A DNA stretch of 52,020 nt, taken from assembly GCA_030834185.1 (NCBI GenBank), contig JAURFT010000006.1:1-52020 (forward strand), read 5' to 3'. The translations under genes were made by a program, and so were the position numbers. The DNA is from Candidatus Nanopelagicales bacterium (GTDB taxonomy: Bacteria > Actinomycetota > Actinomycetes > S36-B12 > UBA5976). Positions 37,653 to 51,915 of the stretch are shown in pieces; position 1 is the first letter of the stretch, and every line of letters starts with the position of its first letter. The notes beneath the pieces are model-generated. The model was not told the origin of the DNA. It ran no database searches and saw only the letters and a program-made list of their open reading frames with translations.

Positions 37653-38895
37653 ATGACTGAGCCAACAAATCCCCCAATAAATGAACCAGACATCAGAGCC
37701 TTTGAGGCAATTGACACCATTGAGGAAGAGCGCTGGTTAACTCGAGCGCTTAAAGATGAAACCTTTGGCGGTTCATTATTGCTAGCAGCAGGTGTGCTGG
37801 CATTAATAGTTGCCAACTCACCAGCAGGCGATTGGTATGCAGAGCTGCTGCAAACCAAGCTGGGCTTTGAGCTGGTTGGCTTAAAACTCACAGTTGCGCA
37901 TTGGGCAGCTGATGGTTTGCTTGCTATTTTCTTTTTAGTTGCAGGGTTAGAGTTAAAACACGAGTTAGTTCATGGTTCATTATCAAAACCAAGACAAGCA
38001 ATGGTGCCACTTGTTGCAGCAATTGCAGGCATGACCTTTCCCCGCTTTAATTTATGTAATGATGTTGCGTGGCAACGCAGAAGCTATTGGTGGCTGGGCA
38101 ATACCTGTTGCAACTGATATCGCATTTGCGCTAGCAGTGCTTGCAGTAGCTGGGCGAGGATTGCCGGTTGAACTAAGAGCATTTTTATTAACACTAGCTG
38201 TTGTTGATGATTTAGGTGCAATCACAATTATTGCAGTTTTTTATTCTGATGATATTGATAAAAACATGTTATTTTTATTAGTAATTCTATTAGTTATATA
38301 TGGCTTGCTACAAAAATTTAATTTCACTCGTTGGTTTTACTTAGTGCCACTTGGTTTATTAATCTGGTGGGCAACATATCAATCGGGTATTCATGCGACA
38401 GTTGCGGGAATTGCAATTGCGCTACTAACTCGCATTCAACACCGAGATGAAGAAACAAGCTCACCTGCAGAAATTGCGGAGCTTCGGGCCAGGCCAATTA
38501 GCGTTGCGATTGCAATTCCAATTTTTGCTTTTACAGCAGCAGGTGTTGATCTAAGGGATCTTGGCTTTATGGATACGGTAAGCAGTGATATTTCAATTGC
38601 AATTATTTTGGGATTAGTTATTGGTAAACCGCTAGGTGTAATTGGATCTACTTATTTACTAACTAAATTTACTAGCGCCAGATTAAATGAAAATCTAAAT
38701 TGGTCTGATGTGCTTGCAGTTGGGCTGTTGGCTGGCATTGGCTTTACAGTGTCTTTGTTAATTGCTGAACTCTCATTTGCCACAGACATTGCAAATCTAT
38801 CTGCTGCGAAAGTGGGTGTTTTAGCAGGTAGCGTTCTTTCGGCAGTTGCTGCAATTGTGGTTATGCAGTTGCGAGCTCGAAAGGCTAGGGTTTAA
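37653..38895 (+). pseudogene. nhaA: Na+/H+ antiporter NhaA split by a +1 frameshift at CCCC (38040-38043)
   Basis: ORFs 37653-38117 and 38059-38895 are the N- and C-terminal parts of NhaA; removing one C restores ...[35 protein letters not shown]... (~413 aa). Confidence 0.9.
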
Positions 38896-40019
38896 TGCGA
38901 AAAAAACTCTTCACAGTTTTTCTAACCGCATTACTAGCTACACCCAGCGCAGTTGCTGCGCAATCGCCAAATAATGAATTAAATCTGGCTTTTAGCAGCT
39001 CTGATATTGCTGGTGCAGTAACGAACGGCGGTGGGTCACGTGGCCCAGCGCTGGCAGTTATGCAAGATGGCACCGTGCTGCTTGGTGGTGGAGATGCTGG
39101 TGGTGAGATTTTTTTAGTAAATGTAAAAACTCAAAAACTTCGTAAACTTGGCAGCTTAATTCCTGCTAACAAAAGACTAATTGATTCAAGATTTGCCATT
39201 ACAGATATTGGCGTTTTAAGTGAAAACAAAAAACGTGCAAATCTATTAATCTCTTATCCAAGATTAGGCAGTAATAATCGATGTGTGGAAGTTGCAGTCG
39301 ATCAAATTAGATATAACCGAGCCAAACAAAAAGTTAATCGAGTTGCTAATTGGTTTGTCACAAAACCCTGTGTGCCTATTTCAGCCGTGCAACATGCATC
39401 AGGCAGATTTGCTGTAATTGATAATAAATCAGCTTATGTCACTATTGGTGATCTGGGTTTTCCTGGAATTAATGATCGAGGCAAACGTGGCGATTTAGGT
39501 TCGATATTTAAAGTAAGTGCAACTAATGTTGAACGCATCTCCCAAGGGCATCGAAATGCTCAAGGTATATTGTTATTTAATGGCAAGGATTTACTTGCAG
39601 CTGAGCATGGACCTCGCGGCGGCGATGAACTAAATTTGATTAAACCTGGCAATGATTACGGCTGGCCATTCGTGACGTATGGCGAACCGTATAGCTCTGG
39701 GGATTACGTGAAGCCAACAAAAACTGGAACACATCAAGGCTATGTCGAACCATTTAAATATTGGACGCCATCAATTGCGCCAACCGAACTTGTACAACTA
39801 CCTGAAGTTGGTTGGGGAGAATGGAGCGGCGCGCTAGTGCTTGGCACGTTGCGTGAAAATGCGTTGGTCTTTATGAAACTAGATAACAAATTTAATGTTA
39901 CCCAAACCAAAATGGTAGATCTTGGTCAGCGAATTCGAGATCTAGAGATTAATAAAGCGGGTAATTTAGTAGCAACTACTGATGAAGGTAGATTGTTTGA
40001 AATAAAGCAGAAGAACTAA
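38895..40019 (+). CDS. Secreted PQQ-dependent glucose/sorbosone dehydrogenase-like protein
   Basis: Signal peptide; DLLAAEHGPRGGDELNLIKPGNDYGWPFVTYGEPY motif. Confidence 0.88.
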   Translation: MRKKLFTVFLTALLATPSAVAAQSPNNELNLAFSSSDIAGAVTNGGGSRGPALAVMQDGTVLLGGGDAGGEIFLVNVKTQKLRKLGSLIPANKRLIDSRFAITDIGVLSENKKRANLLISYPRLGSNNRCVEVAVDQIRYNRAKQKVNRVANWFVTKPCVPISAVQHASGRFAVIDNKSAYVTIGDLGFPGINDRGKRGDLGSIFKVSATNVERISQGHRNAQGILLFNGKDLLAAEHGPRGGDELNLIKPGNDYGWPFVTYGEPYSSGDYVKPTKTGTHQGYVEPFKYWTPSIAPTELVQLPEVGWGEWSGALVLGTLRENALVFMKLDNKFNVTQTKMVDLGQRIRDLEINKAGNLVATTDEGRLFEIKQKN

Positions 40020-40032
40020 CATATTAAACAAG

Positions 40033-40105
40033 TGCGCCTGGAGGGACTCGAACCCCCAACCGCCTGATCCGAAGTCAGGTGCTCTATCCGTTGAGCTACA
40101 GACGC
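40033..40105 (-). tRNA. tRNA-Arg(TCG)
   Basis: Cloverleaf GCGTCTG...CAGGCGC; anticodon stem-loop CCTGA-CTTCGGA-TCAGG. Confidence 0.93.
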
Positions 40106-40629: not shown

Positions 40630-41982
40630 ATGTCAATATTTCGTCGACGTGCAATAGGGCTAGGTGTAATTGTCACCGCGTCTTTATTGGTACTCGCTGG
40701 GTGTTCATCTGAATCAGATTCAGCAGGAGGCGGAACTGAAAATTGCGAGGCATATGCTGAATATGCTGGCAACGAAGGAACCACAGTAGAAATTTACACA
40801 ACCATTATTTCTCCTGAAGCAGACCTATTTGTTCAATCATTCCAGGAGTTTCAAGATTGCACAGGGATAACTATCAATTGGAATGGCTCACAGGAATTTG
40901 AAGCTCAAATTTCAGTGCGAGTTGAAGGTGGCACTGCACCAGATCTAGCAATTTTCCCACAGCCAGGCCTGCTAGCTAAGTTCGCTGGTAATGGATTGGT
41001 ACCTGCTCCTGCAAAGGTTGCAGACTCAGTGGATGCAAATTACACAGCTGACTGGAAAAATTATGGCACTGGCCCAGATGGTGTCTTTTATGCAGCACCA
41101 CTTGGTGCAAACGTAAAGTCATTCGTTTGGTATTCACCTAAGACGTTTGCAGATAATGGTTGGTCAATTCCAACAACTTGGGCTGAACTACTTGCACTAT
41201 CCGATGAAGTTGCAGCAGGCGGAGACATACAGCCTTGGTGTGCTGGATTTGGATCAGGCGATGCAACCGGTTGGGTTGGAACAGACTGGATGGAAGACCT
41301 AATGCTGCGATTCAGTGATGCTGCAACTTATGATGCATGGGTAAGCCATGACATTGCATTCAACGATCCAAAAGTACAAACAGTGATCGATGAAGCTGCA
41401 AAGATCCTAAAGAATCCAGATTATGTTGGTGACGTAGCTTCAATCGCTACCACTACATTCCAAGAAGGTGGCGCTGGCATTGTTGATGGAACTTGTGCAA
41501 TGCATCGTCAAGCATCATTTATTGGTGGAATTTTGGCCGCTGACTATGGAGCAACAATTGTTAATCCAGAAGATACCGATGTAGAGGGTGGAATTACAAC
41601 TTTCTACTTCCCAGGTGTATCTGCTGATCAAACTCCAGCTCTTGGCGGCGGCGAATTCGTTGGTGCATTCAGCGATCGTCCAGAAGTACAGGCTGTTCAG
41701 CATTATCTAACAACACCTGATTGGAACAACAAAAAAGCTGCACTTGGTGGCTGGTTCTCAGCCAACCTTGGATTGGATACTGCAAACGTGGCAGATCCAG
41801 TTAATAAGGTTGCTGTTGAAATCTTGCAGAATGCAACCACATTCCGCTTTGATGCATCAGATTTGATGCCAGCAGCAGTAGGCGCTGGATCTTTCTGGAA
41901 GGAAATGACTGCTTGGGTAGCGGAGAACAAGTCGAGCAAGGCTGTTCTAGATGCTATTGAAGCTTCATGGCCGGCGAACTAG
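40630..41982 (+). CDS. Sugar ABC transporter substrate-binding lipoprotein (alpha-glucoside type)
   Basis: Lipobox LLVLAGCSS; extracellular solute-binding family 1 features; followed by two permeases. Confidence 0.92.
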   Translation: MSIFRRRAIGLGVIVTASLLVLAGCSSESDSAGGGTENCEAYAEYAGNEGTTVEIYTTIISPEADLFVQSFQEFQDCTGITINWNGSQEFEAQISVRVEGGTAPDLAIFPQPGLLAKFAGNGLVPAPAKVADSVDANYTADWKNYGTGPDGVFYAAPLGANVKSFVWYSPKTFADNGWSIPTTWAELLALSDEVAAGGDIQPWCAGFGSGDATGWVGTDWMEDLMLRFSDAATYDAWVSHDIAFNDPKVQTVIDEAAKILKNPDYVGDVASIATTTFQEGGAGIVDGTCAMHRQASFIGGILAADYGATIVNPEDTDVEGGITTFYFPGVSADQTPALGGGEFVGAFSDRPEVQAVQHYLTTPDWNNKKAALGGWFSANLGLDTANVADPVNKVAVEILQNATTFRFDASDLMPAAVGAGSFWKEMTAWVAENKSSKAVLDAIEASWPAN

Positions 41983-42003
41983 TAATAGTTCTTTAAGAGT
42001 AAT

Positions 42004-42042
42004 AACACTTCAGGGGCTTGCGCTGCAAGCCCCTGAAGTGTT
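42004..42042 (+). promoter_or_regulatory. Perfect 18-bp stem-loop between binding-protein and permease genes
   Basis: AACACTTCAGGGGCTTGC-GCT-GCAAGCCCCTGAAGTGTT. Confidence 0.8.
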
Positions 42043-42056
42043 TACTGGGAAGTGAG

Positions 42057-43064
42057 ATGAAATTGACAGCACTAGTTCCTCAGCGATCGCTCTGGGACAC
42101 CGTGTTGCCAAATTTAGTGATGCTAGGTAGTGCCATCGCAGCTTTCCTTGGCATTATTTTTCTTTTATTTGTTTTAGCAGAGCGATCACCAAACAAAATC
42201 CAAAATATATTGAAATATGTAGTTTTTCTAGCACCTGCTGCAGTGCTGCTGCTTATTGGATTGATTTATCCTGCAATTCGCACACTGATCTACTCTTTCA
42301 TGAATGACGACAGTTCAAAATTTATTGGATTTGAAAATTACGTTTGGGCTTTTACGATTCCTGAGATTCGGATCGTTTTGCGCAATACACTAATTTGGAC
42401 AATTTTGGTTCCAGTTTTGGCAACTGGAACTGGTTTGGCCATCGCTTATATGACGGATCGAATGAAGCGCGCGGCTGTGATTAAGTCATTAATTTTTATG
42501 CCAATGGCTATCTCGTTTGTAGGGGCGGGAATTATCTGGCGATTTGTTTATACCTATGAAGCAAATCTAAAACGACCTGAGATTGGTTTGTTGAGTTCGA
42601 TCTGGCGAGCAATGGAGTGGGAACCTCGCAATTGGCTTCTTGAAGCACCGTTGAATACCTTGCTCTTGATCGTGGTTATGGTTTGGATTCAAACAGGCTT
42701 TGCCATGGTTGTGCTATCTGCTGCCATGAAAAACATCCCAGATGAAATTATTGAGGCATCTTTACTTGATGGCACTTCAAATTGGCGAAGATTTACAAAA
42801 ATCACAATTCCAATGATTAGGGCTACCATCGTGGTGGTATTAACAACAATTACAATTGGAACTCTAAAAGTATTTGACATTGTAAGAACTATGACTGGTG
42901 GCAATTTCAAAACTAATGTTATTGCAAATGAAATGTATTCACAGTCATTTAGGCAGATGAACTATGGCACTGGAAGTGCTTTGGCTATCATTTTATTTAT
43001 TGCCATTATTCCAATAATTATCTACAACGTTCGACAATTAAGACTTGAACGGACGGAAAGATAA
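42057..43064 (+). CDS. Sugar ABC transporter permease (MalF/AglF-like)
   Basis: EAA loop EIIEASLLDGTSNWRRFTKITIPMIRA; start moved to MKLTALVPQ because the upstream start lies inside the stem-loop. Confidence 0.92.
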   Translation: MKLTALVPQRSLWDTVLPNLVMLGSAIAAFLGIIFLLFVLAERSPNKIQNILKYVVFLAPAAVLLLIGLIYPAIRTLIYSFMNDDSSKFIGFENYVWAFTIPEIRIVLRNTLIWTILVPVLATGTGLAIAYMTDRMKRAAVIKSLIFMPMAISFVGAGIIWRFVYTYEANLKRPEIGLLSSIWRAMEWEPRNWLLEAPLNTLLLIVVMVWIQTGFAMVVLSAAMKNIPDEIIEASLLDGTSNWRRFTKITIPMIRATIVVVLTTITIGTLKVFDIVRTMTGGNFKTNVIANEMYSQSFRQMNYGTGSALAIILFIAIIPIIIYNVRQLRLERTER

Positions 43065-43975
43065 TGACCATAATTAATAGTAAACGTGCAAAAAATGCAT
43101 TTAGTTCTCCAATAGCCTCGGCTGCAGCTGTCGTAATTGCGATCCTATGGACCATACCTACGTTTGGACTTTTAGTTAGCTCGATTCGACCTGAAAAGTC
43201 AATAAATACATCTGGCTGGTGGACCTTTTTCACAAACCCAGAAGTATCACTAGAGAATTATGAAAAGGTTTTGTTTCAAGGCACTTTGATTCAACCACCA
43301 ATGGTGCAATATTTTTTCAACAGCTTGGCAATTACTTTGCCAGCAGTAGTTTTTCCAATAACTTTGGCAGTATTTGCAGCTTACGCCTTGGCTTGGTTTG
43401 ATTTTAAAGGTCGAGACTTTATATTTTTTACTATTTTCGCGCTTCAAGTAGTGCCTTTGCAGTTAACGCTAATTCCACTTCTTCAACTTTTTGCTAAAGG
43501 CTTATCAATAAATGGCATCACGATTATTCCTGATTTAGGAATCACTGGCACGTATATACCCATCTGGATTGCGCATACAATCTTTGGACTACCGTTGGCA
43601 ATATTTTTACTACATAACTTCTTACGACAGATTCCTCGTGAACTAATTGAGGCTGCTAAAGTTGATGGAGCTGGATGGTTCATAATGTTTCGTGCGCTGA
43701 TATTGCCGTTAAGCATTCCTGCAATTGCGTCATTTGCTATTTTCCAATTTCTTTGGGTTTGGAATGACTTATTAGTTGGTTTAACTTTTGGTGCTGGCTC
43801 TAAAGAAGTAGCTCCTATGACTGTTCGATTGGCGGAGATGGTTGGTACTCGTGGTGGTGGCTGGGAAGTGCTAACCGCGGGTGCATTTGTTTCGACAGTA
43901 GTACCACTGATTGTCTTTTTTGCCTTGCAGCGTTATTTCGTACGAGGATTATTAGCAGGCTCAGTTAAGGGTTAG
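43064..43975 (+). CDS. Sugar ABC transporter permease (MalG/AglG-like)
   Basis: EAA loop RELIEAAKVDGAGWFIMFRALILPLSIPAIASFAIFQFLWVWNDLL. Confidence 0.94.
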   Translation: MTIINSKRAKNAFSSPIASAAAVVIAILWTIPTFGLLVSSIRPEKSINTSGWWTFFTNPEVSLENYEKVLFQGTLIQPPMVQYFFNSLAITLPAVVFPITLAVFAAYALAWFDFKGRDFIFFTIFALQVVPLQLTLIPLLQLFAKGLSINGITIIPDLGITGTYIPIWIAHTIFGLPLAIFLLHNFLRQIPRELIEAAKVDGAGWFIMFRALILPLSIPAIASFAIFQFLWVWNDLLVGLTFGAGSKEVAPMTVRLAEMVGTRGGGWEVLTAGAFVSTVVPLIVFFALQRYFVRGLLAGSVKG

Positions 43976-45351
43976 CGTTTCCTACCAAGATTTAGCTCCC
44001 TTAGAAACTCCGCACTTAGTTTGGGTGTGCGCTTTTGATTGCTAAAGTCGTTATGAATAATTCCAAATTTTTTAGATATTCCTTCAGCCCACTCAATGTT
44101 ATCTAACAGCGACCAAGCAAAGTACCCCTTTAGATCTATGCCTTGAGCTACAGCTTCTAGTGCTGTTTTGATATGGGTGTAAAAATAATCAACTCGATCA
44201 AAATCTAAAACTTTGCCATCAATAATGTGATCAGGAAATGCTCCACCATTTTCAGTTATATATAGCGGAGTATTTGGTAGCCGAGCTGAAGTTTGCTGCA
44301 ACGTAGTTAATAGTGAACTGGCATCTATTTCCCAACCCATTTCGGTGGTTGGTGGTAGCGGATTAAAGCTTATTGGTTGTGGAGTTCCTGGATATAAGGC
44401 GAGATCTTGTCCTACAGCAGCGCTAGCTGGCGCTGCCATACCCAGCCTTGTTGGCGTGTAGTAATTAATTCCTAGCCAATCAATAGGTTTACTGATGCAA
44501 TCTAGCTCAGCTTGATCAACAAAGTCCCAATCCAAAATGTGTTTAGTGTTTTCAATCAAAACAGACGATACCCCTCGACCAGCTAATAGATCTAGCCAGA
44601 ATCGATTTTGTAAAATATCAATATGCTCTTGAGCAGCTGCTAACTCACTAGTTGCAATTATTGAAGTTAAATTCAAAACAGTGCCAGCATTTTTTACGCT
44701 GTGCTCTCGCAGTACCTGTAGAGATTTTCCGTGAGCCAACATTAAGTTATATGCAGCCCTAAACCCACTTGCCGCATCATTTCGACCTGGAGCATGAATT
44801 GCGGTTGCATAACCTAGGAATGCACTAACCCATGGCTCATTTAAAGTTGACCAAAAATCGATTCGGTCACTAAATTTTTCAGCTAAAATATTTGTGTATT
44901 CAGCAAAACTTTCTGAAATACCATCCCAAGTCCAACCACCCATGGCTTCTAGTTCAACTGGAAGATCCCAGTGATAAATTGTGAGTGATGGTTTTATGTT
45001 TCTAGCTAATAGGCCGTCTATTAACTTGTCATAGAAGTCAAGACCTACAGCTGAAGCTTTGCCACTTCCAGTTGGAATAACTCTGGGCCAAGAAACTGAG
45101 AAGCGGTAGGCGTCTACATTTAACCAGCTAAGTAGATCAAGATCTGTTTGATACAGTGAAACATGATCACAAGCTGGATCTGCTAGCGCTCCATCTTTGA
45201 TTCGGCCGGCATTAGCAAAATCATCCCAAATCGAAGCTCCTCGTGTGCTGCTATTACCTTCAATTTGCCAAGATGAAGTTGCCGCTCCAAAGATAAAATC
45301 AGTTGGTGTCATGGCAGCTAGTTCAAGGGCTTTTGCAGTTAACTCACTCAT
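43972..45351 (-). CDS. Glycoside hydrolase family 1 beta-glucosidase
   Basis: FIFGAATSSWQIEG, WSTLNEPWV (acid/base Glu), LYITENGGAF (nucleophile Glu), GYFAWSLLDNIEWAEG. Confidence 0.96.
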   Translation of the reverse strand: MSELTAKALELAAMTPTDFIFGAATSSWQIEGNSSTRGASIWDDFANAGRIKDGALADPACDHVSLYQTDLDLLSWLNVDAYRFSVSWPRVIPTGSGKASAVGLDFYDKLIDGLLARNIKPSLTIYHWDLPVELEAMGGWTWDGISESFAEYTNILAEKFSDRIDFWSTLNEPWVSAFLGYATAIHAPGRNDAASGFRAAYNLMLAHGKSLQVLREHSVKNAGTVLNLTSIIATSELAAAQEHIDILQNRFWLDLLAGRGVSSVLIENTKHILDWDFVDQAELDCISKPIDWLGINYYTPTRLGMAAPASAAVGQDLALYPGTPQPISFNPLPPTTEMGWEIDASSLLTTLQQTSARLPNTPLYITENGGAFPDHIIDGKVLDFDRVDYFYTHIKTALEAVAQGIDLKGYFAWSLLDNIEWAEGISKKFGIIHNDFSNQKRTPKLSAEFLRELNLGRKR

Positions 45352-45541: not shown

Positions 45542-46102
45542 TTATTTTGATGGCAGTTCAGTAAATCGTACTTTGACAAGAACTAAAAGTAATTGTTTAT
45601 CTATCTGCCAATCAAAAGGAACTCGAATGGTGTGTTTATTAATTTTGTAATCTTTTAATTTCGGCAGTGTCTTTTTGATTGCATCTGCACTGAATGGATT
45701 AAGTAAAATATGATTTTTTTGAACACCTAACCCAAAGACATATCCATTAGCTGCCTTGAGCATTGGCTGATTCCAAGCAATCACTAATTCAAGCTCTGGA
45801 TATTTGGTTTGAATGGCTTTAAATATTTCTGTTACTGTTTTTGCACATTGCTTATCAAGCTTCTTCAAGTAGTCAGCTGGATCTTTATGTCTTTTGGAAG
45901 ATACAGATCCTTTTGCAAACATAACAACAGCGTTTGCATGAGTTTGGCTAAATCCATGATTCTCTCTCAAAAAAGAAATTTGAGCTGGGTATTTCTGGTC
46001 ATCAAGATTAGCTAATTCAGAAAGCCAGTACTTTATTGGCTGGCCATACTTTTTTTCAATGGCAGGAAAGTGTTTAGCACGATCTCCAGAATCAGCTGCC
46101 AT
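45542..46102 (-). CDS. DUF4287 plus DUF1801/DUF5655-like protein
   Basis: YPAQISFLRENHGFSQTHANAVVMFAKGS (DUF4287-like) and YPELELVIAWNQPMLKAANGYVFGLGVQKNHILLNPFS (DUF1801/DUF5655-like). Confidence 0.75.
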   Translation of the reverse strand: MAADSGDRAKHFPAIEKKYGQPIKYWLSELANLDDQKYPAQISFLRENHGFSQTHANAVVMFAKGSVSSKRHKDPADYLKKLDKQCAKTVTEIFKAIQTKYPELELVIAWNQPMLKAANGYVFGLGVQKNHILLNPFSADAIKKTLPKLKDYKINKHTIRVPFDWQIDKQLLLVLVKVRFTELPSK

Positions 46103-46141: not shown

Positions 46142-46927
46142 CTAGAGCGAACTTGTTGCCAATACACCTGCAAATATCTGCCAGGCTAAGGCTGACTTTG
46201 CTACAAATGAAAGTGTGATGTAAAGCCGTTCACCAACAAGATAGTCTTTAAATTTCCCGATTTGTTTATATTGCAACCACTGCACAATTGCAAAAGAATT
46301 GAACAGCACAAATAATGAAATAACGACACCATAAACAAAGCCTGGTGGCTGGTTAGTGCTACCTGGTGAGAACAACAGCCAGAACATGGCGATCCATGGC
46401 ACTATGCCAGCAATGCAGCCAAACCAAAATGGTAGTAAGCCGCCAGAGCCAGGCTCTTCATATTTTTCTTGCAACCAACCAAATAAAATCATTGTGACAT
46501 TGACACCAGCAATTGCAATTAGCGCGATGATGTCCCAAACCGCATTAATTAATGCGATAAGTATGATCATTATGGTTGAAGAGATGGAGTATTCAATCCA
46601 GCGTGCAATGTTGCGCTTATTAGCTAAATCAGTGGCATAGTTCTTAAAACCAGGTCCAACAATCCAAAAATGTGCAAGCGCGCTCAACAATGAGAATACT
46701 GCTACACCAGCTGCGATTGGAAAATTAAACAAATTTATGCTCTCAAAGGTTGCACCAGGTATTGGCGCATCTTGCAGATAATTCACAGATACCGGCAGCG
46801 CAAAGCTGTTAGAAAGCGCGATTATTGCAATTGCTTGGGCAAAGTGAAATATGCCCGCAATTAGGTTGTAGCGACGAAGGCCAGCTAGACGCTCGGCTGG
46901 AATTGCTAATAATTCAGAAGATGCCAT
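46142..46927 (-). CDS. Heliorhodopsin
   Basis: 261 aa, 7 TM; heliorhodopsin signatures ARWIEYSISSTIM (counterion Glu112) and ERLYITLSFVAKSALAWQIFAG (retinal Lys244); His28 and His86 at expected TM positions. Confidence 0.92.
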   Translation of the reverse strand: MASSELLAIPAERLAGLRRYNLIAGIFHFAQAIAIIALSNSFALPVSVNYLQDAPIPGATFESINLFNFPIAAGVAVFSLLSALAHFWIVGPGFKNYATDLANKRNIARWIEYSISSTIMIILIALINAVWDIIALIAIAGVNVTMILFGWLQEKYEEPGSGGLLPFWFGCIAGIVPWIAMFWLLFSPGSTNQPPGFVYGVVISLFVLFNSFAIVQWLQYKQIGKFKDYLVGERLYITLSFVAKSALAWQIFAGVLATSSL

Positions 46928-46934
46928 AAGGGTG

Positions 46935-46940
46935 AGCCTA
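46935..46940 (-). promoter_or_regulatory. Candidate -10 element TAGGCT of a leaderless heliorhodopsin promoter
   Basis: TAGGCT ends 7 nt before the heliorhodopsin ATG; no SD visible. Confidence 0.45.
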
Positions 46941-47018
46941 GCAATACGTAGCTCAACTTTGCAGGTATTTAGCCATTTATAAGGGCTTAAAAGTCTGTGA
47001 ACGAATTTGGGCTGAACC

Positions 47019-47028
47019 CGCTTAAGCG
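47019..47028. promoter_or_regulatory. Perfect palindrome CGCTTAAGCG in the divergent heliorhodopsin-sbtA intergenic region
   Basis: Read directly; adjacent to the candidate sbtA -35. Confidence 0.4.
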
Positions 47029-47053
47029 ATTGGGCTACTGATTGGTTCTCAGT

Positions 47054-47059
47054 TAGTAT
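47054..47059 (+). promoter_or_regulatory. Candidate -10 element TAGTAT of a leaderless sbtA promoter
   Basis: TAGTAT ends 7 nt before the sbtA ATG; no SD visible. Confidence 0.45.
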
Positions 47060-47066
47060 TTCGTCG

Positions 47067-48029
47067 ATGAATTCGTCACTGGATATCGCCCTGTCAAATC
47101 TGACGTCAGTATCGGTATTGATATTTCTATTTGGTTTGCTTGCTGGCGCTATTAAAAGTGATGTGAAGATTCCTGAACCTATTTATCAATTCATTGCGAT
47201 ATATCTACTTTTTGGCATTGGCCTTAAAGGTGGAGTATCACTGCGTGAGAGTGAAATTAGTGAAGCGGTAGTTCCCATTTTGGCAACATTAGTGCTGGGT
47301 ATCACAATTCCATTTTTAGCATATCTAACTTTGGGCAAAGCAACTAAAATTTCTTCAATTGATCGTGGCTCACTTGCTGCACATTATGGTTCAACATCAC
47401 TAGTTACATTTACTGCAGTACTAGTTTATTTAGATAGCAACAAAATTAGCTATGAAGGATTTGCCACAACCTTACTTACGGTTATGGAAGTGCCAGGAAT
47501 TGTAGTTGGTATATTTTTAGCTAAACGGCACTTAACACCAAAAGTGGATTGGTCAGAATCACTAAAAGAAATATTTTTAGGCAAAACATTAATGTTATTA
47601 GTTGGTGGTTTATTTATTGGCTATGTAGCTGGTGGAGAGGGATATGTTCGGGTTGAGCCATTCTTTGTGAACTTGTTGCCAGGTGTGCTTGCGCTTTTCT
47701 TGCTGCACCTAGGTTACTTAGCAGGCGAGCGGTGGAAATCAATTCTTGAAGTAGGTAAAGGTCTAATTGCTTTTGGTATTTTCTTCCCAATTGCAATGGG
47801 CTCGCTGGGTACTTTCGTTGGAACCTTAATTGGACTCTCTGTTGGTGGCGCTGTAATTTTAGGAATCTTGTCTGCTAGCGCATCTTACATAGCAGCACCT
47901 GCTGCAGTCCGTGTTGCACTCCCAGATGCAAATATATCAATAGCAGTTACAACAAGTTTGGTAATTACATTTCCCGTTAACCTACTGCTTAGCATTCCGT
48001 TATTAACACTGCTTGCACAAAATCTTTAA
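47067..48029 (+). CDS. sbtA: Sodium-dependent bicarbonate transport family permease (SbtA-like)
   Basis: 10-TM pattern; IYLLFGIGLKGGVSLRES, AAHYGSTSLVTFTAVLVYL, LLHLGYLAGERW, ASASYIAAPAAVRVALPDANISIAVTTSLVITFPVNLL motifs. Confidence 0.9.
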   Translation: MNSSLDIALSNLTSVSVLIFLFGLLAGAIKSDVKIPEPIYQFIAIYLLFGIGLKGGVSLRESEISEAVVPILATLVLGITIPFLAYLTLGKATKISSIDRGSLAAHYGSTSLVTFTAVLVYLDSNKISYEGFATTLLTVMEVPGIVVGIFLAKRHLTPKVDWSESLKEIFLGKTLMLLVGGLFIGYVAGGEGYVRVEPFFVNLLPGVLALFLLHLGYLAGERWKSILEVGKGLIAFGIFFPIAMGSLGTFVGTLIGLSVGGAVILGILSASASYIAAPAAVRVALPDANISIAVTTSLVITFPVNLLLSIPLLTLLAQNL

Positions 48030-48601: not shown

Positions 48602-49444
48602 TTAGGAAAGTATGTCTTTTCGATCAAACTTCAAAAAGGCCAATGTGATTAAGGTTGCGAACAATATTGCTGCGCTAGCAAAACCTTTTGCCATCCCATC
48701 CCAAACTATTTCTGGGCTTAAGACATCAGTCCAAGCTTGACTGTAATGGCCAGGCAACCAATTTCGCAAGTCACCTAGTGCTGAAATCGCATCTAAAATT
48801 GCAAACACAATTACCAGCAGCACTGCAGTTCCAACTGCACCAAGTGGCACATCAGTTCGAACGCTCATATAAAACGCAAGTCCGGAAACAAACAATAAAG
48901 TTATATAAACATACCCACCAATTATTGCCAACCTAAGAATTTGCTCAGCACCAGAAAAATTACCACCCAGCGGACTTATTAATGGTTCACTGCCAAATGC
49001 GAGTAATCCAATTAAATAAGAAACCAAAATTAAAATCATAATTGCCATTAAATTAAGCGTCATAGCAACAGCAAGTTTGATTCTAAGCAATCTGCGCCTT
49101 GGCACTGGAGCTGCTAATAAATAACGCAAACTTGACCAAGATGCTTCACTGGCAACAGTATCTCCTGCAAACAACGCAAATACAGTTGTTAATAAAAATC
49201 CAGTAGCAAAGAAAATCATAACAACTGTAAAGTTGCTAGCACCATTAGTTGCTAAACCTATTAAATCTAAATCGCCACCACCAAAATCACTTGAATCATC
49301 ATCACCTGATCCAAACTTAACAGCAGCTACCACAATTAGTGGTAGTAAAACCATCAGGCCAAATGCAACTAAAGTTCGTCGGCGTCTGAGCTGTCGGATG
49401 AACTCAACTTTGAAAGGTAAGGTTTTTCTAACTATGTAAGTCAT
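48602..49444 (-). CDS. ABC-2 type transporter permease
   Basis: Six TM pattern, FALFAGDTVASEASWSSLRYLLAAPVPRRRLLRIKL; overlaps the upstream ATPase gene by 4 nt. Confidence 0.9.
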   Translation of the reverse strand: MTYIVRKTLPFKVEFIRQLRRRRTLVAFGLMVLLPLIVVAAVKFGSGDDDSSDFGGGDLDLIGLATNGASNFTVVMIFFATGFLLTTVFALFAGDTVASEASWSSLRYLLAAPVPRRRLLRIKLAVAMTLNLMAIMILILVSYLIGLLAFGSEPLISPLGGNFSGAEQILRLAIIGGYVYITLLFVSGLAFYMSVRTDVPLGAVGTAVLLVIVFAILDAISALGDLRNWLPGHYSQAWTDVLSPEIVWDGMAKGFASAAILFATLITLAFLKFDRKDILS

Positions 49445-51915
49445 GACGTTTTTCCGATCGTTAAGTCATCGCCAACCACATCAAGGAAGAAATCCTCTAG
49501 TCGCATGTTGCTGTGGCTGGCCAGCAATTCGCTAACTTCACCAGCAGTAATTAATTGACCTCGATGCATCACCACCACATAAGAGCAGGTTTGTTCTACC
49601 TCACTTAATAAGTGAGAAGAAACAATTACTGTTTTGCCTTGAGCAACATAGTCATGCAGCACATCTCGCATAGCTTTAATCTGAGGGGGATCAAGTCCAT
49701 TAGTTGGCTCATCCAAAATCAAGAGATCTGGCATTCCGAGCATGGCTTGCGCAATGCCAAGCCGTTGTCGCATTCCTTGGCTGTAGGTGCGAACTTTTCG
49801 GTCTACTGCAGTACCTAGATCTGCAATTTTTAATACCTGTTCAAAATGCGGTTCAGAATTTCTGCCAGTTGCTCGCCAATACAACGCCAAATTTTCGCGT
49901 CCAGTTAGATGAGGTAAAAAGCCTGCACCTTCAACCAAAGATCCAATTCGAGATAGCACCGCAGCACCAGGAGTTACTCGCTCTCCAAACACAAACACCG
50001 AACCTGCAGTGGGCTGAATTAATCCCATCACCATTCGCATGGTGGTGGTTTTGCCAGCACCATTTGGACCTAGCAACCCAACTACTTTCCCTTGCGGAAT
50101 TTCATAGCTAATGTCGTTAACAGCTTTTGGACCATTTTTAAATTGCTTAACTAAGTTCTCAATTACAACTGGAGTTTCAGAAATTTCAGCACGAGTATCT
50201 GCTTTACGATGACGTGGTCGCAAGATAATTAAGACCAAACCAAGCAGCACAATTACACCAATAGTTAGCAGCACAAAAACCCAACCTGATTGTGTGGTTG
50301 TAGTAGGTGTTAGTGCTGTAGTTGAGATCGCAATTGTTGGGCTAGCTAACTCAATTAAATAATTTGCTGGCGTGGTAGGTAACCGATAAGCCAGATCAGT
50401 TGTGCTAATTACTACCTGCAAAATATCGCCGACCTTGGTAGCCACTGCAATTGCTGGCAGCTGAACTAGCACGGTTGTAGGTTCAGTTGAGATTAGTGGA
50501 ATTCGAATTGGGGCCACTAAACCACTTGGCAACGAGGATACTGCGTTAGCTCCCACAATTCGCAAACTTGCAAATAGCACTACATCTTGCTGCGGTGAAC
50601 TGCTAGAAACTTTAAGCTCAAGCTGCGAGCTACCAACAATTTTTAAAGTTTTAGTTAAGGGTGCAGTTTGAAAAATTGCGTTCTGGGCTGGGATCTGCTG
50701 CGTTAATAAACTACCAATGCTGCCAATTCCTGGGAAAGTTGAAATCGCAGCTGGAACTCCACCTGCTGGTGCCAGCACGCTTTGGGCTGGTCCGGCAATT
50801 GATAATTGTTCGGTTAAGTTTGCGATACCAGGATAGTTTTTACTTGATTCAATTCCAGTTGATTCATTAGCTTGATTTGCGCTAATTATGTTTGCTGGCA
50901 CAAAAGTAACTTCAAAATCAGAATTAATGCTGCCAGTGTCGCGAAGATATTTATCAAACCAACGCTGGGTCAATTCATCTAGCCTGGTGGTTTCGGATCT
51001 ACCACCATCATGCCCGCCGCTGTGCCAGACAAATTTAATTGGCAAAGCTGGATTGGCAGCTTTAAGCTGCTGATAATTAGCATCAGCTTCAGATAGCGGA
51101 AATAGTGAATCAGCTTGACCTGCTAATAAAAGTGTTGGCGCCGTAACGTTGGCATTAGTGCTTACCGGTGATGAGCTACGCATTAATTGCGCTTCTGAAT
51201 TGGTATAAGAACCTCGCTGCGCAACGCTTTCATATAACTGACACCAAGTGGGATCAAATCTGCCGCAACGAGGATTTGTTGGGTTTGGAATTACTAAACC
51301 ACGACTAAAGAAATAACCAGTCCATAATTGTTTAAATACACCTGCTGAATTTAAATTAACTACGCTTTGTGGAAATAGCGCAGTAGTTAGGTTATGCCAA
51401 GTGATATCTGATACCACAGCATCAACTCGAGGGTCAGTTCCTGCGATCATCAAACTTAACGCGCCACCGTATGAACCACCAGCAAAACCAACCCGAGGAT
51501 CGTTTGCATCGTCTTTAATTACCTCTGGTCGATTTGCCAGATAGTCAATTACTTTTGCCGCATCGGCAATTTCAAATTGCGGTGAGTTCATTGAGATTAA
51601 GCCAGTGCTTTTACCAAAGCCGCGTGCTGTGTATGCAACTACTACGTAACCTGCTGCACGCAAATTTTCAGCCTGTTTAGCAACTGCTGTTTTACTGCTA
51701 CCAAAACCATGGGCTAGTACAATTGCTGGCGCTGGAAGTGTGGTTGGCAGATACAAATCGCTATCTAACTGCACTGCAGTGGCATCAGAGCTGCTACTTG
51801 CAGCACCTGCAATAACTATTGCCAACGGATTAGTTTGGGCAGCTGCAGTGCTTGGTAGAAAACCAAAAATAAACAGCGCGGCCAAGCCATAGCTAAGCCA
51901 GTTACGAAACAACAT
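49441..51915 (-). CDS. Fusion: exported alpha/beta-hydrolase (X-Pro dipeptidyl-peptidase S15/CocE-like, with PepX-C-like domain) + TM helix + cytosolic ABC transporter ATPase
   Basis: Signal peptide; GGSYGG nucleophile (Ser148), Asp269, His302; TM GWVFVLLTIGVIVLLGLVLIILRPR; Walker A GPNGAGKTTT, signature YSQGMRQR, Walker B LLILDEPTNGLDP. Confidence 0.92.
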   Translation of the reverse strand: MLFRNWLSYGLAALFIFGFLPSTAAAQTNPLAIVIAGAASSSSDATAVQLDSDLYLPTTLPAPAIVLAHGFGSSKTAVAKQAENLRAAGYVVVAYTARGFGKSTGLISMNSPQFEIADAAKVIDYLANRPEVIKDDANDPRVGFAGGSYGGALSLMIAGTDPRVDAVVSDITWHNLTTALFPQSVVNLNSAGVFKQLWTGYFFSRGLVIPNPTNPRCGRFDPTWCQLYESVAQRGSYTNSEAQLMRSSSPVSTNANVTAPTLLLAGQADSLFPLSEADANYQQLKAANPALPIKFVWHSGGHDGGRSETTRLDELTQRWFDKYLRDTGSINSDFEVTFVPANIISANQANESTGIESSKNYPGIANLTEQLSIAGPAQSVLAPAGGVPAAISTFPGIGSIGSLLTQQIPAQNAIFQTAPLTKTLKIVGSSQLELKVSSSSPQQDVVLFASLRIVGANAVSSLPSGLVAPIRIPLISTEPTTVLVQLPAIAVATKVGDILQVVISTTDLAYRLPTTPANYLIELASPTIAISTTALTPTTTTQSGWVFVLLTIGVIVLLGLVLIILRPRHRKADTRAEISETPVVIENLVKQFKNGPKAVNDISYEIPQGKVVGLLGPNGAGKTTTMRMVMGLIQPTAGSVFVFGERVTPGAAVLSRIGSLVEGAGFLPHLTGRENLALYWRATGRNSEPHFEQVLKIADLGTAVDRKVRTYSQGMRQRLGIAQAMLGMPDLLILDEPTNGLDPPQIKAMRDVLHDYVAQGKTVIVSSHLLSEVEQTCSYVVVMHRGQLITAGEVSELLASHSNMRLEDFFLDVVGDDLTIGKTS

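Follow-up and report, generated by a model that had tools for sequence, protein, structure and literature searches.

A heliorhodopsin gene of a Candidatus Nanopelagicales bacterium and its recurrent neighbor, an Sbt_1-family transporter gene, as a candidate partner

The physiological role of heliorhodopsins (HeRs) is unsettled, and arguments about it have drawn, one case at a time, on the adjacent genes. One such case is posed by a stretch of 52,020 nucleotides from a Candidatus Nanopelagicales bacterium (contig JAURFT010000006.1, hereafter "the window"), in which an initial annotation, made from the letters alone, had recognized a heliorhodopsin gene and looked for its partner among the unusual genes around it. 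Is this gene a genuine heliorhodopsin, and which neighbor, if any, might it act on? The features that bear on both questions are collected in Table 1; the genome to which the window belongs (G000) amounts to 1.34 Mb in 142 contigs and is 86.6% complete.

Table 1 Features of the window around the heliorhodopsin gene (positions in the window).
Feature	Position	Strand	Basis or remark
Heliorhodopsin (HeR) gene, 261 aa, ATG start	46142..46927	minus	Profiles, PDB match, alignment, fold
Intergenic gap of 139 bp separating the start codons of the divergent HeR and Sbt_1 genes; probable promoter site	46928..47066		No consensus promoter above shuffles
Sbt_1 family (PF05982) transporter, 320 aa; candidate partner	47067..48029	plus	Profile and SbtA match
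DUF4287 + DUF1801 protein, 186 aa; probably co-transcribed with HeR	45542..46102	minus	Same arrangement in G002
Glucose/sorbosone dehydrogenase (PF07995)	38895..40019	plus	Conserved near HeR in relatives
Sugar ABC transporter (binding protein, two permeases) and GH1 glycosidase	40630..45351		Absent from syntenic L109
tRNA-Arg(TCG)	40032-40105		Adjoins the sugar ABC/GH1 block

The annotated open reading frame exists and lies on the minus strand, which had been left unstated; the plus strand across 46142-46927 is full of stops. In a Pfam profile search, one of the checks that the annotation had proposed, the 261-aa product matched Heliorhodopsin (PF18761) at 308.3 bits (cut-off 26.7) along positions 1-242 of the 242 in the profile, and the NCBIfam equivalog for HeR (NF038020) gave 306.3 bits (cut-off 100). 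A PDB sequence search returned 48C12, the crystallised HeR of an uncultured freshwater actinobacterium (PDB 6su3, 6su4, 6uh3; E = 6e-84), with which the window protein shares 56-57% identity over its full length (56.6% over aligned residues). The four residues singled out beforehand, His28, His86, Glu112, and Lys244, were placed exactly: they fall in the same alignment columns as His23, His80, Glu107, and Lys241 of 48C12 and do not vary across a 28-sequence HeR alignment, with Lys244 corresponding to the retinal Schiff-base lysine in the last helix and Glu112 to the counterion. Every retinal-pocket and cavity residue checked is identical in the two proteins. The comparison with solved structures, likewise proposed in the annotation, pointed the same way. 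For an AlphaFold2 model built from the 28-HeR alignment (pLDDT 90.1), the ten best PDB matches in Foldseek were HeRs only (TM 0.85-0.94), type-1 rhodopsins scoring far lower, and the predicted fold was like that of 48C12 (TM 0.87-0.92 to 6su3/6su4, 0.90 to 6su3; rmsd 1.6-1.7 Å).

Together, the profiles, PDB matches, and fold search rule out a chance reading frame or a membrane family other than HeR, and it is certain that the gene encodes a genuine heliorhodopsin. That the protein is able to bind the chromophore is well supported by its residues and predicted fold. Its topology should be inverted, with a cytoplasmic N-terminus, as follows from homology to 48C12, and it would presumably be loaded with chromophore and sense light. 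A second reference is AbHeR of Actinobacteria bacterium IMCC26103, which regulates glutamine synthetase (PMC9529153) and is 58% identical to the window HeR. Both proteins carry the lysine that follows a conserved tyrosine in the third cytoplasmic loop (LQYK), whereas the second lysine of the AbHeR YKK motif is replaced by glutamine in the window HeR. Gene context sets the window HeR apart from both references: unlike 48C12, it is flanked by Sbt_1 and DUF4287-DUF1801 genes, and, unlike AbHeR, it has neither glutamine synthetase nor NAD+ synthetase as a neighbor. A glutamine synthetase context for HeR was seen in other lineages only (g6 and acI loci). In agreement with the annotation, photolyase, glutamine synthetase, and retinal-biosynthesis genes were all found to be missing from the window.

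Overall, the gene is an ordinary, new member of a common and known family, since most genomes of the window's order carry one (118/166). Of 397 genomes drawn from the phylum, about one in four carries HeR. The closest HeR loci (72-85% identity) come from freshwater-type actinobacterial assemblies, several of them deposited as Candidatus Nanopelagicaceae. A second HeR is encoded in G000 (contig C81:5026-5784); it is 37-38% identical to the first and retains the four key residues. Its neighbors include a small MauE/DoxX-like membrane protein, with a SOUL gene also near, and comparable second HeRs are present in G018 (C9) and G146 (C76). The same genome carries one type-1 rhodopsin (contig C121), in which the stretch DWLLTVPLLLVE reads as the D-T-E motif of a proton pump, so that this small genome holds three rhodopsins in all.

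Next to the HeR gene, the DUF4287-DUF1801 gene lies 39 bp downstream on the same strand, while the Sbt_1 gene lies upstream and diverges across the 139-bp gap. Past the DUF4287-DUF1801 gene lie the genes for GH1 and the sugar ABC transporter, then tRNA-Arg, the glucose/sorbosone dehydrogenase gene, and an NhaA antiporter gene. In the sister genome G002 (locus L109/L041), the order Sbt_1, HeR, DUF4287-DUF1801, tRNA-Arg, dehydrogenase, NhaA, and M13 peptidase is preserved; between the two genomes, HeR and Sbt_1 are each 85% identical and the DUF4287-DUF1801 protein 60%. L109 shares the tRNA-Arg with the window and keeps the flanking order without the sugar ABC/GH1 block, and this block is therefore probably a local insertion in the window genome, or a loss in G002. 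Being absent from the syntenic locus, it was rejected as the HeR partner, for which it is a poor candidate, and it is no conserved indicator of HeR function. The glucose/sorbosone dehydrogenase, by comparison, lies near HeR both in the sister genome and at two more close HeR loci, and has been reported by others on HeR transcripts. The initial expectation of a partner among the unusual neighbors thus holds in part: the GH1/sugar-ABC block drops out, the DUF4287-DUF1801 and Sbt_1 genes are conserved, and the link to Sbt_1 recurs independently (see below). An NCBIfam search gave no match for the window Sbt_1 or DUF4287-DUF1801 proteins. No shared promoter motif could be upheld for the HeR-Sbt_1 gap, as the three sequences align poorly and promoter-like matches did not exceed those in shuffles.

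Elsewhere in the window, one frameshift near 38037-38041 divides the NhaA Na+/H+ antiporter gene (37653-38895) between two frames; the L109 homologue is intact, and the frameshift may reflect either a mistake in assembly or sequencing or a genuine lesion. An 824-aa reading frame at 49441-51915 joins an S15/X-Pro peptidase-like hydrolase domain to an ABC ATPase domain; the gene that follows it (48602-49444) encodes an ABC-2 permease.

We next evaluated which neighbors recur around HeR genes. Reading frames in the DNA around ~100 HeR genes of the order were clustered, and clusters within 1.5 kb of HeR were ranked by the number of genera. The photolyase-related DPRP ranked first (four genera), Sbt_1 second (three genera), and the SOUL heme-binding family third (three genera). 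Among the 47 genomes of the order with both genes, 6 have HeR and Sbt_1 no more than 1.5 kb apart; these 6 span 3 genera and 2 families, and most genomes with both keep them unpaired. The pair is divergent in one family (the window genome, G002 with L041, and G006 with L007) and convergent in another (G023, G121, and G119, the last with an Sbt_1 fragment only). A tandem arrangement on one strand, Sbt_1-CNNM-HeR, was found in a different family (G189, from the 397-genome phylum draw), two congeners of which have Sbt_1-CNNM away from HeR. The label "Sbt-linked" must change no fewer than three times on the HeR tree, and the Sbt_1 proteins concerned belong to separate subclades; for both reasons, a single inherited event does not account for the pairing, which arose more than once, with at least three origins. 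At ~45 loci outside the named lineages (acI/Planktophila, Nocardioides, Actinomadura, Cryobacterium, and others), no Sbt_1 was found within ~6 kb of HeR.

How far such recurrence exceeds chance depends on the yardstick. In a control ring at 2.5-7 kb from HeR, 4 of 371 clusters reached three or more genera, versus 3 of 246 within 1.5 kb. Because the control ring matches it, recurrence alone proves little, and a raw genus count is insufficient as proof of linkage. The recurrent clusters of the control ring look like multi-copy families, to judge by their sequences (ABC ATPases, low-molecular-weight phosphatase/arsenate reductase-like proteins, GGDEF proteins, and aminotransferases). Sbt_1, by contrast, is low-copy and present in 53 of the 166 genomes of the order. 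Random placement of Sbt_1 in the 47 genomes with both genes would make the two adjacent in ~0.12 genomes, against the 6 seen, and in 0.05 genera, against three. The weight of the argument rests only on this copy-number-aware expectation and on the independent origins. Co-occurrence of the two genes also exceeds expectation, both in the order (47/53 vs 71/113; Fisher p = 5e-4) and in the phylum (11/18 vs 96/378; p = 0.002), phylogeny being ignored in both tests. In the titles and abstracts returned by a full-text literature search, no report of a HeR-Sbt_1 or heliorhodopsin-bicarbonate link was found. Taken together, the link is a good lead, short of a result.

Other arrangements around HeR came to light in the same survey. 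In G006 (L116/L007), SOUL and Sbt_1 genes flank HeR on one side and a photolyase-related gene on the other; SOUL genes lie near HeR in G048 as well. In all eight genomes examined of genus g13 (L145, L146, L147, L179-L182, and L202), a gene for an AI-2E family transporter stands directly before HeR on the same strand and overlaps or nearly touches it, which is another HeR-transporter arrangement.

What the neighboring carrier transports can be approached through its relatives. The window Sbt_1 protein matches PF05982 at 336.9 bits and shares this superfamily with the Na+/HCO3- symporter SbtA of Synechocystis (PDB 7cye, 7egk; E = 2.8e-32 to 7cye). The bicarbonate ligands of SbtA are Ser114, Tyr140, Ser324, and Ser327 (PMC8352866). 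Ser114, Ser322, and Ser324 of SbtA are kept in the window protein, whereas Tyr140 is replaced by Leu and Ser327 by Ala, leaving two of the four ligands in place. Across the order, Sbt_1 proteins retain Ser114 and Ser324, carry Leu or Val at 140, and in nearly all cases carry Ala at 327 (one has Asn). Because all of them replace two of the four SbtA ligands, canonical bicarbonate specificity was not assumed, and bicarbonate is best regarded as a possible substrate.

A precedent for a HeR acting on a transporter is given by the HeR of O. cerasi (OcHeR), shown experimentally to modulate the ABC transporter OmrDE, which is encoded nearby (PMC11109279). Other HeRs have been reported to modulate glutamine synthetase, with bacterial HeRs described as non-pumping (PMC9529153), and modulation of a photolyase has likewise been reported (PMC9769723). 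As in the OcHeR-OmrDE pair, a model for HeR-modulated transport, the window HeR lies beside a membrane transporter; here, however, the transporter is a secondary carrier of the SbtA superfamily, divergently encoded and not in an operon, and the pairing is known from gene association. The same study sorted HeR operons into ten neighbor groups, with Sbt_1 in none; as it considered co-transcribed genes only, its survey would miss divergent or convergent pairs (PMC11109279). None of the ten groups is found on the strand of the window HeR, where the neighbor is DUF4287-DUF1801, and the HeR and Sbt_1 genes, being divergent, are not co-transcribed.

Given these precedents, we tentatively propose that the window HeR may be a photoreceptor that modulates the divergent Sbt_1 transporter in a light-dependent way, a reading based on gene association that we consider possible and short of probable. 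The HeR would bind retinal at Lys244 and serve as a light-activated, non-pumping regulatory photoreceptor, and in this genus its gene would be the first of a short HeR-DUF4287/DUF1801 transcription unit. The Sbt_1 neighbor, on the diverging side, would probably be a sodium-coupled anion transporter. Light would change the shape of the HeR, and this would alter the activity of the carrier, or the anion or carbon supply that it provides, with the effect passed on by direct intramembrane contact or via the cytoplasmic loops. We infer both a physical or regulatory interaction between HeR and Sbt_1 and an anion as the substrate. According to a proposal by Kovalev et al., as cited in PMC9529153, triangular anions, carbonate among them, could fit into a HeR cavity; because of this proposed carbonate-sized cavity, a carrier of the bicarbonate superfamily would be an attractive partner, which is speculation.

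Against this reading stands a serious rival, in which the HeR is a real photoreceptor and its pairing with Sbt_1 has no function: accessory genes of sunlit-water bacteria (HeR, Sbt_1, photolyase-related, and SOUL genes) would be inserted and lost in the same flexible regions, and chance meetings among them would exceed what a random-placement model allows. We regard such accessory-gene clustering as a real possibility that stops short of being probable. Most HeR neighbor clusters are indeed confined to one genus (233/246), the sugar ABC/GH1 block was inserted right beside the HeR cluster in the window genome, and HeR itself turns over, the HeR of the same-genus G001 being just 56% identical to that of the window. 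However, a low-copy gene such as Sbt_1 (53/166) meets HeR in three arrangements where 0.12 genomes are expected, and the other recurrent low-copy neighbor, DPRP, is a member of the photolyase group, and a function with HeR has been reported for that group. The functional partner could instead be the co-directional DUF4287-DUF1801 protein, a soluble protein that HeR would control at the membrane as AbHeR controls glutamine synthetase. The short same-strand gap, found in the same order in G002, is the very criterion by which published HeR partners were identified (PMC9529153, PMC11109279), but this immediate position was seen in a single genus; in other genera, members of the cluster lie 2-3 genes from HeR in varying orientation, and the protein is less conserved between the two genomes than HeR and Sbt_1 (60% vs 85%). 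On balance, we judge it unlikely to be the partner in this genus.

Two further alternatives were considered. The HeR might work in trans, its neighbors being irrelevant, with a protein encoded elsewhere, such as glutamine synthetase or the photolyase-related DPRP, whose gene is present on contig C58 of G000. DPRP adjoins HeR in four other genera, including in G006, which also has the Sbt_1 neighbor, and in G015, whose HeR is 74% identical to that of the window. Nevertheless, the window genome offers no evidence of linkage, and the known photolyase and glutamine synthetase cases are adjacent genes, which makes action in trans improbable here. Alternatively, the HeR might be mostly apoprotein in an organism that is unable to make retinal and reliant on retinal from the water. 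The genome search for blh and crt genes that the annotation had called for bears on this point and came out divided: crtB was found together with crtI (contig C78), while no gene of the BCD (blh) family was found in G000, nor in G001 and G002 of the same genus, by a search that detects BCD in 3 of 30 relatives. Yet the assembly is incomplete, the crt contig ends inside crtI, and the genome encodes both crt genes and a rhodopsin of the proton-pump type; we therefore consider a mostly retinal-free HeR highly improbable.

The new element at this locus is the recurrent HeR-Sbt_1 neighborhood, which appears in three gene arrangements in different actinobacterial lineages and provides a concrete partner candidate for a family whose members are otherwise interpreted one by one. 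Should the link fail, the gene is one more ordinary HeR. In its broadest form, which we consider doubtful, the proposal is that HeR and Sbt_1 make up a recurrent light-regulated module for sodium/anion transport, by which heterotrophic actinobacteria would couple anaplerotic or anion uptake to daylight; HeR would set the activity of the carrier, whose substrate would possibly be bicarbonate or another small anion, with a link to the anion-sized cavity seen in HeR structures. If the link is true, light sensing would be connected with the uptake of inorganic anions in abundant freshwater bacteria.
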